From: an uncultured Sulfurovum sp.
Lineage (GTDB): Bacteria > Campylobacterota > Campylobacteria > Campylobacterales > Sulfurovaceae
DNA: 33,326 nt
NCBI GenBank assembly: GCA_902727995.1
Contig: CACVAZ010000117.1
Span: 1-33,326, forward strand
Reading direction: 5' to 3'
The position numbers and the translations under genes are program-made. Each line of letters begins with the position of its first letter. Within the stretch, counting starts at the first letter, position 1. Shown here piece by piece: positions 24,658 to 32,940 of this stretch. The notes beneath the pieces are model-generated. The model made no database searches. It was given only the letters and a program-made list of their open reading frames with translations, and was not told the origin of the DNA.

Positions 24658-25773
24658 TTGAATTTTGTTTTTACAACTATTGACCAATGGTCACTGAAAA
24701 TTTTAGAAATATTTAAACGTTTTCCTCTTGCGATGCTCTCTTCTTTTATAGCGACAATTCTACTATTAATATTAATTGAAATTGGAAAACAAGCTCCTGT
24801 AGACTTTTTACTTGTGGCAAATAAGTTAGCGATGGTTTTAAGTCTTGGTATATTTCTTTTTCCTGCTTTACATTTACTTTCAAAAAAAATATGGTTTAAG
24901 TTAGTAGGTATAGGACTTTTAGCATTTTATTATTACTATTTACCTTTCAATATTTTAAACTCAAATACTGTAATACAGCATATGCTTTTAGTTTTTGCTC
25001 TTTCCTTCATGTTTCTTTGGGCTCCATTTATGGATGTTAAAATTTCTAATCAAAATATTTGGGAGTGGACACAAAAAATTATTCAAAACTTGTTGGTTGG
25101 CTTACTCTTAAGCTTGGTTATTTTTATTATGTTTTATGTCAGTATGTATGCTTTGGAAGAATTATTTTTTGTCACTTTAGCCACACGTCACTATGTTCAG
25201 TTTGCATTGTTTTTGTTAGGTATTTTTAGTACTGGTTACTTTTTAGGAAAAATACCAAAATATATTATGTTGGTACAAAAAAATAAGTATGATGATTTAG
25301 GTCTAGTTTTTACCAAATTTATGTTGACTCCAGCACTCTTAATTTATTTTTTACTTATTTTTGCTTATATTATTAAAATTATTTTAGAACAGAGTTGGTT
25401 AAGTATTAATATTGATCTTTTGGCTGTGGGTTATACCTTTGTTGCTATAGGAACGTATATGCATTGGACACCACTATGGGATGATGCAAATCAAAAATTT
25501 AGACTGTTTATTTGGGGTTCTACTCTAATGTTAAGTATTACTTTAGGAGTTTCTATTTATTTTCGTATCTTAGATTCTTCATTGGATGAACATTATTTAA
25601 TCTCACTTTTTACACTATGGTTAGGACTTATTTCACTCTATTTCCTCTTTATTAAGGAAGCCAGTTATAAGTGGTTATTTTTTTCTATTTCCCTACTTAT
25701 TCTCATTTCGCAATCTCAGCAACTCATTGACGTTTCTTTAGAGCTTTATACAAGGATTTTACCTTTTTTATAG
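24658..25773 (+). CDS. Multi-pass membrane protein, DUF4153-like
   Basis: Many TMs; FKRFPLAMLSSFIATILL N-terminus and RILDSSLDEHYLISLFTLWLGLISLYFL C-terminus resemble DUF4153 proteins; TTG start after GAAAGGGAAA. Confidence 0.55.
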   Translation: MNFVFTTIDQWSLKILEIFKRFPLAMLSSFIATILLLILIEIGKQAPVDFLLVANKLAMVLSLGIFLFPALHLLSKKIWFKLVGIGLLAFYYYYLPFNILNSNTVIQHMLLVFALSFMFLWAPFMDVKISNQNIWEWTQKIIQNLLVGLLLSLVIFIMFYVSMYALEELFFVTLATRHYVQFALFLLGIFSTGYFLGKIPKYIMLVQKNKYDDLGLVFTKFMLTPALLIYFLLIFAYIIKIILEQSWLSINIDLLAVGYTFVAIGTYMHWTPLWDDANQKFRLFIWGSTLMLSITLGVSIYFRILDSSLDEHYLISLFTLWLGLISLYFLFIKEASYKWLFFSISLLILISQSQQLIDVSLELYTRILPFL

Positions 25774-28193: not shown

Positions 28194-31100
28194 ATGTCTA
28201 AAATTTTTCGTACGCTTTTATTTTCTCTTATTTTTTTCACTCATGCACTTTATGCCATAGAAAGTAGTGAACTTCCTAAAACTTTACAAGATTGGACAGC
28301 TTGGATACTAGACAATGAAAAAGAAAAAGATTGCCCTATTGACTTTTCTACCAATGAACACATTTGTACCTACCCTACACAGATAGCAGTGCATGTTCAT
28401 GAACATGGGTTAACTTTTAATATGATGGTGGCTGTGTTTAAAAATCAGCAAAAAATTGAGCTTCCTCATGCTTATCAGAATTGGGTGAAAGAAGTTCACA
28501 TTGATGGTGAAAAGAGAGCTGTGTTGGGTTCTTCTAAAGCAATGGTTTTTTTAGATGAGGGAGAACACAAGATTGAAGGTACTATAGTATGGAAAGAAGC
28601 ACCAAAATATTTACAACTTTCATCAAATATGGCATTGATTACACTTTATAAAGAGGGAAAAAAGATTACTACACCTAAAGTAGATGCACAGTCACGATTA
28701 TGGTTAAGTGATAATGAAGAAGAAAGTAATAAAAAAGGCACCTTATCCGTCTCTATTTATCGGAAACTTATGGATGGGCATCCTATGAAAATGCAAACCA
28801 ATTTGCATTTTAGGGTTTCAGGAAAAATGCGTTCAGTACTTTTAGATGGCATTGTCTTAGAGGGGTTTTACCCTTCACGTGTTTTAGGAAACTTAGATGC
28901 TAAGATTAACAAAGATAAAAAGTTAGAAGTGCAAGTCAAAGCAGGGGAATGGGTGCTTAATATTGACTCTTTTTCTCCTACAAATCTTTTAGAATTGCGT
29001 GTGCCAAAACATAGTTTTAAGTATGCCAATCAAGAAACTCTTTCTTTACAAACTGACGCTAGTTATCGTAGCATAGAGATTTTAAATGCTCAGTCGATTG
29101 ATCCTTCTCAAAGTAACCTTCCTAAAGCTTGGAAAAATTTAGCCCTTTACCTTTTAGAAGAAGAAAAAAGTTTAACTATAAAAGAGTTGTACAAAAGTGT
29201 GAAACAGCAAGAGCAAAATGATTTTGTATTAAAACGGGAAGTTTGGTTGGATTATGACGGAAAAGGCTATTCCTTTAAAGACAATATCCAAGCCAATATT
29301 TCCAAGGTAAAACGTTTGGAGAGTTCAGGGGTATTTGATTTGGGCTCAGTTTCCATTAATACTAAACCAATGCTTATTAATACACTTAATAGTAGTGAGA
29401 AAAAAGGGGTAGAGCTAAGAGAAAAAAATATGGACATAGAGGCTTCAAGTCGTTATGAAAATAATAGAGCTTTACTTCCTGTCAATGGTTGGAGTGAAGC
29501 ATTTGATAAAGTGTCTCTTTATTTGAACCTTCCTCCTGGTTGGCGTGTTTTTGCTTCGTTTGGCAGTGACAGTCAAAGTGCAAAATCATGGGTGAAATCA
29601 TGGAATTTAATGGATATTTTCTTAGTATTACTTCTGAGTATTGCTATTTATCAACTTTTTGGATTAAAATGGGCTATTCCTGCAACTTTTTTTCTCTTAA
29701 TACTTTGGCATGAAGCATCTGCTCCGACGATTATTTGGTTATGGATTTTGGCACTAGTGGCACTCATTAGAGTTTTAGGAGAAGGGAAAATGAAAAAGGT
29801 TTTGCAAGTTGTTTTTGCACTCTCTTCGATTGTGGTGATTTTAAATGTATTGCAGTTTTCAGTGTATAAAGTACGAACTACCCTCTACCCTCAATTGGAA
29901 AAAGTACCTTATGTCTCGACTTATGCTTCAGAAAAAGACAATGCACAAAGCAGGGGAAGGATAAGCAAAGAGGTGTACCAACAAGAATCTATGGATCAGA
30001 TGGTAGTGCAAAGTTCAAATTATGCGAAAACAAAAAAGATGATGATTCCCAAAAAGAAACAAATTCTATTACAAAATAAAATTGATCCCAATGCCATTGT
30101 GCAGACAGGAGAGGGGACACCTACATGGAATTGGAGTCATCACTCTTTCTTTTGGCAAAGTACTGTTGGTTTGGAAGACAAGCTAGAGATTTGGTTCATT
30201 ACCCCAACCATGACCAAGGTTTTAAACATATTAAATGTTGTGGGAATGCTCTTTTTATTATGGATGTTTTTACAAGCTTTTTTGAAAAGTTCATTTCAAG
30301 GTTTAAAAGAAAAATTGAGTAAATCACAAGGTCTAAAGGCAATGTTTTTTCTTCCTTTTTTATTGCTTGGAACAGCAGAAGAATTAAAAGCCAATGAGAT
30401 TCCATCGACAGAGCTTTTGCAGCAGCTTAAAGAAAAACTCTTAGAAAAACCTACTTGTTTACCTCATTGTGCGAGTATTGAGCAGATGGAGGTATTGGTT
30501 GAAGAGGAGACACTTTTTATAAATATAAACATCTCTGCTGGGCTGGATGTGGCTGTACCTATTTTAGGAAACCGAAACATTTGGCTTCCTGAAGATGTGA
30601 GTGTAAATGATAGCGATAAGAGTTATTTACAATTGGATAAAGAGGGTGGTTTATGGGTGATGTTACGTAAAGGGATTCATAAAGTATCTTTGCGTGGTAG
30701 CATTAAAGGTTTAAATCAGATTATGCTCATGTCTAAATTACCCATTCATAATTTAGATTTAAAAGAGAGTGCGTTATGGAAGCTTAACAGTGACGATAAG
30801 AGTTATATTGAGCTTGTTAATGTTGATAAAAAATCAAGTGAGTCTAGGGAAAAAACAAAAAGTTCGCTTGAACCTATGGTTGAGGTCACACGAACGTTTT
30901 ACTTTGGTTTACGTTGGTATGTTGAGACCCAAGTGAGATTGTTAAATAAGATTGATAAACCCTATACTTTAAATTATGCTCTACTTGAAAATGAGTCGGT
31001 ACTAAATAAAGAGATAGAGGTGAATGGGAAAGAAGCTATTTTACAGTTGCATAATAATCATCCTGCTTATCAATGGCGTTCCTCTTTGCCCATTAGTTTA

Positions 31101-32237
31101 GCTTTATTGTTAAAAGCTTCAGCTCAAAATTCAGTAATGGAAGAGTGGAAAATGGATATCTCTTCCATGTGGAATATGCATCATGAAGGGGTAGAGAGTG
31201 AAAAACAAGTAGCCCATAGCAATCAGCTCATGCCAACATTTAGACCATGGAAAAATGAAACCTTGAATTTAACGTTGGAAGCCATCAAAGCTGTTAAAGG
31301 AAAAAGTTTAACCATAGAGTCGAGTGATTTAAGCATTGTTCAGTCTCAAAGGTACCGAGATTTAACCCTTAAACTCAGAGTTCAAAGTTCACGAGCTCAG
31401 CAACATACGATTGTTTTAGAGAATGTGAAAGAGCTTAGTTCAGTAAAAATAGATGAACAAGATCATTATCTTAAAATTAAAAATGCTGAACTCTCCATTC
31501 CTTTAAAAGGAAAAGCACAAACAGTGGTGATTAAATGGAAAGAGGAATCAGGAACTCAGAGTATTTATAACTTCTCTAAAATTAATTTAAATAAAGATTC
31601 AGTCAATAGTAATGTTAAGTTACACTTGCCTCAAAACCGTTGGGTACTTTGGACAAATGGACCTCTTTTAGGACCTGCTGTGTTGTTGTGGGGTGTGTTA
31701 TTAAGTGTATTAATCTTTGCTCTTATTTTAGGACGTGTTTCAAATTCACCATTAAAAGTAAGTGATTGGTTACTTTTAGGGGTTGGGGTGAGTACGAGTT
31801 CAGTGATGATTATGATTCCAATTGTGGCTTGGATATTTTTACTACGTTACAAAGAGCAAAAAAAAGAAGCACTACAAGGAGGAATGAGAAACTTTATTCA
31901 AGTACTCATTGGGTTGTTTACCGTGGTAGCATTGGCAACGCTTGTAGGGGCTGTATCGGTAGGGTTGTTAGGTAATCCTGACATGATGATAGAGGGTAAT
32001 AATTCTTATGGACTCAACTTAAATTGGTACTCGGATAGAATAGGTGAAACATTGGCACAGCCAATGGTGGTCTCGGTTTCGATGTGGTATTACCGTGCCT
32101 TAATGCTTCTTTGGGCGATTTGGATTTCTTTCTCATTAATTAACTGGTTGAAATGGGCATGGAAAGTGTTTTCTGCTGGAGATATGTGGGTTAAGAAAGA
32201 GAAAGTAGCGATAAAGGCTAAGAATGAAGAAAAATAA
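28194..32237 (+). CDS. Large (1347 aa) membrane protein of unknown function with apparent internal duplication
   Basis: Signal peptide, extracytoplasmic beta-rich region, TM clusters around aa 472-565 and 673-695, second hydrophobic/signal-like segment near aa 714-727, second extracytoplasmic region, TM clusters near aa 1158-1260 and 1300-1325. Confidence 0.85.
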   Translation: MSKIFRTLLFSLIFFTHALYAIESSELPKTLQDWTAWILDNEKEKDCPIDFSTNEHICTYPTQIAVHVHEHGLTFNMMVAVFKNQQKIELPHAYQNWVKEVHIDGEKRAVLGSSKAMVFLDEGEHKIEGTIVWKEAPKYLQLSSNMALITLYKEGKKITTPKVDAQSRLWLSDNEEESNKKGTLSVSIYRKLMDGHPMKMQTNLHFRVSGKMRSVLLDGIVLEGFYPSRVLGNLDAKINKDKKLEVQVKAGEWVLNIDSFSPTNLLELRVPKHSFKYANQETLSLQTDASYRSIEILNAQSIDPSQSNLPKAWKNLALYLLEEEKSLTIKELYKSVKQQEQNDFVLKREVWLDYDGKGYSFKDNIQANISKVKRLESSGVFDLGSVSINTKPMLINTLNSSEKKGVELREKNMDIEASSRYENNRALLPVNGWSEAFDKVSLYLNLPPGWRVFASFGSDSQSAKSWVKSWNLMDIFLVLLLSIAIYQLFGLKWAIPATFFLLILWHEASAPTIIWLWILALVALIRVLGEGKMKKVLQVVFALSSIVVILNVLQFSVYKVRTTLYPQLEKVPYVSTYASEKDNAQSRGRISKEVYQQESMDQMVVQSSNYAKTKKMMIPKKKQILLQNKIDPNAIVQTGEGTPTWNWSHHSFFWQSTVGLEDKLEIWFITPTMTKVLNILNVVGMLFLLWMFLQAFLKSSFQGLKEKLSKSQGLKAMFFLPFLLLGTAEELKANEIPSTELLQQLKEKLLEKPTCLPHCASIEQMEVLVEEETLFININISAGLDVAVPILGNRNIWLPEDVSVNDSDKSYLQLDKEGGLWVMLRKGIHKVSLRGSIKGLNQIMLMSKLPIHNLDLKESALWKLNSDDKSYIELVNVDKKSSESREKTKSSLEPMVEVTRTFYFGLRWYVETQVRLLNKIDKPYTLNYALLENESVLNKEIEVNGKEAILQLHNNHPAYQWRSSLPISLALLLKASAQNSVMEEWKMDISSMWNMHHEGVESEKQVAHSNQLMPTFRPWKNETLNLTLEAIKAVKGKSLTIESSDLSIVQSQRYRDLTLKLRVQSSRAQQHTIVLENVKELSSVKIDEQDHYLKIKNAELSIPLKGKAQTVVIKWKEESGTQSIYNFSKINLNKDSVNSNVKLHLPQNRWVLWTNGPLLGPAVLLWGVLLSVLIFALILGRVSNSPLKVSDWLLLGVGVSTSSVMIMIPIVAWIFLLRYKEQKKEALQGGMRNFIQVLIGLFTVVALATLVGAVSVGLLGNPDMMIEGNNSYGLNLNWYSDRIGETLAQPMVVSVSMWYYRALMLLWAIWISFSLINWLKWAWKVFSAGDMWVKKEKVAIKAKNEEK

Positions 32238-32631
32238 TATTTTAAGTTTGATATTTTGGGTATTTTTATTGAGTGCTTGTAGTAAAACAGTCAATGCATG
32301 GAAAGATAATCCTAATAAGGAGTATTTAGAAGTTTATGGAAAAGAAGATTTACCATTGAAGTTAGGAGAAAAAGGAGTAGATTATCGATGTGTTGATTTA
32401 GTTTATTCTTCTTCAGGGCATACTAAAAAATGTTATGTGTTAAAAAACTCAGCAGAAAAAATTGATAGTTGGTCATCTAGGCTTTATCAAACGTCAAAAG
32501 GTGTTTTGATGGATACTGGTGAAAATATATTAGTTTTTGGAGCATTAACATTATGTGCTATGGGAGCTGCTTGTACGAATTTTGATGTTAGTAAAGATAA
32601 GAGTTTATTTGAAACAATATATGGAGATTAA
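32224..32631 (+). CDS. Putative lipoprotein of unknown function
   Basis: MKKNNILSLIFWVFLLSACSKT lipobox; start overlaps upstream gene by 14 bp. Confidence 0.7.
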   Translation: MKKNNILSLIFWVFLLSACSKTVNAWKDNPNKEYLEVYGKEDLPLKLGEKGVDYRCVDLVYSSSGHTKKCYVLKNSAEKIDSWSSRLYQTSKGVLMDTGENILVFGALTLCAMGAACTNFDVSKDKSLFETIYGD

Positions 32632-32940
32632 ATGCAAGACTTTCTAAACTTCAAAACATTTATAAGTCCTATGGCACTTATAGTCTTTTATTATCTAGGG
32701 GCAATTGTTATGCCCCTTTTTATTTGGTTCTTTTCACGTTGGATTATGAAAAAAATTAGCATGATGGAACAAAGTTATCAAGTAGCTAAAAATATGGCAT
32801 GGGGAACATTAAGCTTTAAACAGAAGATACTTTTTATGGTTTTATTTATAATAATGTTTCTGTTCATGCAACTTCTTTGGCGAATGATGTTTGAATTTTT
32901 GATTGCTTATATGCAGATTAGAGAAGCTTTATATACTTAA
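32632..32940 (+). CDS. Small membrane protein, DUF4282-like
   Basis: FLNFKTFISPMALIVFYYLGAIVMPL...LLWRMMFEFLIAYMQIREAL resembles the DUF4282 pattern; starts immediately after the lipoprotein stop. Confidence 0.65.
   Translation: MQDFLNFKTFISPMALIVFYYLGAIVMPLFIWFFSRWIMKKISMMEQSYQVAKNMAWGTLSFKQKILFMVLFIIMFLFMQLLWRMMFEFLIAYMQIREALYT

Follow-up and report, generated by a model that had tools for sequence, protein, structure and literature searches.

A 1347-residue Sulfurovum membrane protein composed of two diverged copies of one module, with a conserved signal-peptide layout at the joint

The window, the whole 33,326-nucleotide stretch of DNA analysed here (uncultured Sulfurovum sp., assembly GCA_902727995.1, contig CACVAZ010000117.1), belongs to a 2.4 Mb genome in 222 contigs. 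Reading of its open reading frames (ORFs) shows that a single 1347-aa ORF on the forward strand is the whole gene, with its ATG at 28194 and a stop codon ending at 32237, exactly where an earlier note on this DNA had placed it. No family was matched when Pfam and NCBIfam were searched with the protein, and both these searches and those of PDB sequences returned only sub-threshold noise. The 3′ end of the gene is overlapped by 14 bases by a 135-aa putative lipoprotein ORF (32224–32631), after which comes a DUF4282 protein (32632–32940); this arrangement was not found beside the relatives of the 1347-aa gene. Elsewhere in the window, 24658–25773 encodes a 371-aa protein with multiple TM segments, for which neither Pfam nor NCBIfam gave a convincing match; genes for a PhoB-like response regulator and for a PHO4-type phosphate transporter lie downstream of it.

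Both halves of the protein have the same layout, namely a signal peptide, a cysteine pair, two beta-saddles, four transmembrane (TM) helices, a periplasmic hairpin and a fifth TM helix. The features, with the basis of each, are as follows.

28194..32237, + strand: whole gene, predicted precursor of two homologous modules, 1347 aa (ORF; homology of the halves)
28194..28256, + strand: N-terminal signal peptide, aa 1-21, predicted cut after ...LYA (sequence; layout kept in relatives)
28257..29606, + strand: module 1 periplasmic beta region, aa 22-471, with invariant Cys47/Cys58 (AlphaFold2, Foldseek, conservation)
28380..28601, + strand: M1_N-like beta-saddle A1, about aa 63-136 (sub-repeat matches, one of them weak)
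29208..29465, + strand: M1_N-like beta-saddle B1, about aa 339-424 (place in the Ost1-like fold; weak profile match)
29607..29867, + strand: module 1 TM helices 1-4, aa 472-558 (hydropathy, model helices, positive-inside loops across the family)
29868..30212, + strand: module 1 periplasmic segment between TM4 and TM5, aa 559-673 (model; sequence of relatives)
30213..30284, + strand: module 1 TM5, aa 674-697 (hydropathy, model)
30285..30329, + strand: cytoplasmic basic linker, aa 698-712, differing widely in length and sequence among members (loop charges)
30330..30392, + strand: internal signal peptide, about aa 713-733, predicted cut after ...LKA/NEIPS (layout in 53/53, Ala column in 51/53)
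30393..31661, + strand: module 2 periplasmic beta region, aa 734-1156, with invariant Cys755/Cys759 (AlphaFold2, Foldseek, conservation)
30462..30713, + strand: M1_N-like beta-saddle A2, about aa 757-840 (sub-repeat; second match of the M1_N profile, weak)
31311..31547, + strand: M1_N-like beta-saddle B2, about aa 1040-1118 (Peptidase_M1_N profile; PepN match in the 399-genome survey)
31662..31964, + strand: module 2 TM helices 1-4, aa 1157-1257 (hydropathy, model, loop charges)
31965..32081, + strand: module 2 periplasmic hairpin NPDMMIxGNNSxxxxLNWYSDR, aa 1258-1296 (model; sequence of relatives)
32082..32150, + strand: module 2 TM5, aa 1297-1319 (hydropathy, model)
32151..32234, + strand: basic cytoplasmic C-terminal tail, aa 1320-1347 (loop charges)

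The segment between TM4 and TM5 of module 1 consists of a variable, low-confidence insert followed by the hairpin, IDPNAxVQTGxGxPxWxW. Four cysteines are invariant across the 53-member family, two at the beginning of each module, and 12 members lack any further cysteine, which suggests that the pairs form periplasmic disulfides. In the family as a whole, loop charges put the TM5 end, the TM1–2 loop, the TM3–4 loop and the C-terminus inside; they are compatible with five TM helices per module and consistent with the same topology for both.

Relatives are unevenly distributed. Among close relatives the gene is patchy, being present in 11 of 60 genomes, all of the window's own genus, with three further carriers in two other genera of the same bacterial family. 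The earlier note had mentioned similar long uncharacterised proteins in other Proteobacteria, rightly, as a full-length protein of 29% identity, annotated as hypothetical, is encoded by the Azoarcus plasmid pAZKH. Its gene (448951–453045 of the 738-kb plasmid, L022) lies directly upstream of an isoaspartyl peptidase/L-asparaginase gene, with a 4-base overlap. A contig scan with the single protein as query found no relatives; one with a profile of the conserved C-terminal region gave 32 loci, from Azoarcus, Aromatoleum, Propionivibrio, Photobacterium, Teredinibacter, Lysobacterales and Sulfurovum, among others. In 399 sampled Pseudomonadota genomes, the C-half profile matched 29 and the N-half profile 28, including two (an aminopeptidase and a fragment) and one (a fragment), respectively, that are not complete members, and complete members were present in about 27. 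No relatives were found in the viral contigs searched, and literature searches returned no paper on this ~1350-aa family. Gene neighbourhoods of the relatives hold no neighbour conserved across lineages. In one gammaproteobacterial clade, a ~310-aa caspase-like gene (C14-type by eye) lies directly downstream of the family gene, 9–143 bp away on the same strand (L139, L140, L142, L144 and L148), a possible operon; the pairing was not seen in other lineages.

The earlier note had read the protein as two diverged copies of one module. To compare the halves by HHalign, we cut the family alignment at residue 705. As single sequences the halves show nothing significant (best BLASTP E=0.024; HHalign probability 1), as would be expected if they were alike only by chance or by convergence on a generic composition of beta strands plus TM helices. 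Family profiles, however, give a significant match: 10 sequences from the window's own bacterial family yield P=4.2e-6 (probability 86.9), 29 sequences from Campylobacterota, beta- and gammaproteobacteria yield P=1.4e-15 (probability 98.6, 502 columns), and 53 full-length sequences yield P=1.3e-15 (probability 98.6, 482 columns), the alignment being colinear at all three depths. Reversing the C half reduced the score to 27 from 137 (probability 1.2), and 10-column block shuffles scored at most 31. The signal comes from 372 columns of the periplasmic region (P=1.2e-13). The TM parts keep the same order but give a weak match (P=0.023), and the N-terminal and TM5 segments, when compared separately, reach no significance. 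At ten aligned positions conservation reaches at least 90% in each half, and at eight of these the residue is identical (C58/C759, G123/G827, R190/R900, E281/E983, W283/W985, G457/G1156, W470/W1166 and P566/P1262), and predicted secondary structure agrees at 75% of aligned positions, compared to 44–56% when the halves are slid. The profile match with its controls, the colinearity and the residue agreement at conserved positions refute chance or convergence. Thus, the halves are distantly related copies of one membrane-anchored module, arranged head to tail, and the duplication is real; equal topology and a common best structural match (below) agree with the profile alignment. Two of the four segment pairs that had been picked out by eye, VHIDG.../VSVND... 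and LYLNLPPGW/VKLHLPQNRW, lie in the significant alignment, while the other two, the signal-peptide-plus-IPS start and DPN...WNW/NPD...LNW, fall at equivalent places in the topology without reaching significance by themselves.

All complete members are single fused ORFs of about 1320–1490 codons, and partial members stop at contig ends. Split two-gene versions, a search for which the earlier note had proposed, and single-module versions were found neither in close relatives nor in the phylum sample nor in the 399 Pseudomonadota. Its picture of two tandem genes that fused is therefore supported as to duplication and fusion, with the amendment that the event appears ancient, since no searched set holds a split version.

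AlphaFold2 models of the two halves (mean pLDDT 78.7 and pTM 0.45 for module 1; 79.9 and 0.41 for module 2) independently show a beta-rich periplasmic region with shared strand order, a four-helix bundle, the hairpin and a fifth helix. The best PDB match in Foldseek is Ost1 (6ezn_A, E=2.2e-7) for module 1 and ribophorin I in OST-A (6s7o_E, E=7.5e-8) for module 2, with M1 aminopeptidases or leukotriene A4 hydrolase lower down in both lists. Global TM-scores against Ost1 are low (0.15–0.27, rmsd 17–23 Å), as are the pTM values, and the likeness is therefore one of individual domains and not of overall arrangement. A weak M1 likeness also appears at the level of sequence profiles: the one clear outside match of the C-half profile in the 399-genome survey was the Peptidase_M1_N domain of aminopeptidase N (PepN), and when we built an M1_N profile, it matched aa 1040-1118 (P=8.5e-5, probability 60), with no significant match at the other saddles. 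A sub-repeat within the C half (P=1.1e-4) is in keeping with a pair of saddles in each half and hence a total of four.

These resemblances invite two functional readings, neither of which we consider probable. Like both halves, Ost1/ribophorin I has tandem M1_N-like beta domains on the exoplasmic side followed by a membrane part, and it is the best structural match of each half; moreover, Sulfurovum genomes carry STT3/PglB, as a bacterial ribophorin I acting as accessory subunit of an oligosaccharyltransferase (OST) would need. However, the likeness is at fold level only, and the present protein differs in having two modules with five TM helices each, separated by an internal signal peptide, and in showing no association with STT3. 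There is no sequence match to the Ribophorin_I family (PF04597) in the protein or in the window's genome, and in eight family-bearing genomes nothing exceeded the cut-off, two weak matches lying at other places. STT3 occurs in only 5 of 33 carriers outside Sulfurovum, and within that genus it is independent of the gene (7/8 genomes with it, 8/9 without). OST1 has been reported from eukaryotes and from TACK and Asgard archaea, but not from bacteria (PMC11417166). The STT3 distribution and the failed Ribophorin_I search thus disfavour an OST partner, and we regard this role as very improbable. An M1-type peptidase, which the saddles might suggest on account of their fold and weak profile similarity to the M1 aminopeptidase N-terminal domain (PF17900, strongest at aa 1040-1118), is even harder to credit: the saddles are here anchored to TM bundles, the Peptidase_M1 catalytic domain is absent in every family scan, HExxH occurs in 1 of 53 members, and no catalytic motif was found in the 53-member family. 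The missing catalytic domain contradicts this assignment.

With five TM helices, module 1 ends in the cytoplasm, so that the topology calls for a second export signal, and module 2 can adopt the orientation of module 1 only if export restarts, which the internal signal would bring about. Residues 713-733 have a signal-peptide layout in 53/53 members, across Campylobacterota, beta- and gammaproteobacteria, with a basic n-region, a hydrophobic core often of only 8–16 residues and an AxA-type end; the −1 column is Ala in 51/53, with small or aliphatic residues at −3. An acceptable −3/−1 site is found in 53/53 internal segments and in 8–46/53 at control TM ends, in a search that tolerated a 6-residue shift either way, which favours a find (one control reached 46/53). 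The linker that separates this segment from TM5 varies freely in sequence, and its length runs from a few residues to about 70. To the earlier note, the middle hydrophobic segment had looked like a relic signal peptide; the layout holds in every member while the preceding linker drifts, and the segment is not a relic. Because both signal and cutting site are kept at the joint in 53/53, the cell may cut the gene product there into two partner proteins, and most likely signal peptidase I does so, which would yield two subunits of the same topology. The same duplication could also have left an uncut signal-anchor, giving one chain with eleven membrane segments and two periplasmic heads. Some members have an uncharged stretch of at least 20 residues (in Aromatoleum 21–22, enough to span the membrane), making such an anchor possible, and the resulting topology would be identical. 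However, the core in many members, at 8–14 residues, is short for a TM helix, and Ala is kept at −1 despite drifting surroundings, although an anchor needs no AxA site. Short cores and the preserved AxA-type end favour cutting, and we consider the uncut anchor a serious but distinctly less probable alternative.

The reading that we prefer, cleavage included, has a probability of roughly 0.6 as a whole. An ancient tandem duplication with in-frame fusion would have retained the signal peptide of the second copy. Module 1 would be exported by the first signal, with the chain back in the cytoplasm after TM5, and the internal signal would then re-open export so that module 2 inserts in the same topology. 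Cutting by signal peptidase I after both signals would release two homologous inner-membrane subunits of five TM helices each, produced from a single message in a 1:1 ratio. They would probably pair as a pseudo-symmetric heterodimer showing four M1-aminopeptidase-N-domain-like beta-saddles in the periplasm, and might act as a binding or assembly scaffold; such a non-enzymatic role of the paired subunits in the envelope is our guess. That a widespread polyprotein, once cut, supplies two five-TM homologues to a large periplasmic complex made up of four Ost1/M1_N-like saddles, an envelope machine as yet unnamed, seems to us evenly balanced between right and wrong. A parallel is offered by Bradyrhizobium FbcH, the cytochrome b/c1 precursor, which likewise has an internal signal peptide, the site of its cutting, between two membrane-associated parts. 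In FbcH these parts are unrelated subunits of the bc1 complex, whereas those of the present protein are copies of one unnamed module, homologous to each other, and their cutting is only predicted; the conserved in-frame internal signal of the FbcH type is present in 53/53 members.

These data describe an uncharacterised family of ~1350-aa proteins across Campylobacterota and Pseudomonadota that has no Pfam or NCBIfam entry. At the level of fold, a bacterial Ost1-like structure may bear on the origin of a non-catalytic OST subunit. Polyproteins of duplicated subunits are rare outside viruses, and the conserved internal signal peptide predicts that this family would be a bacterial one.
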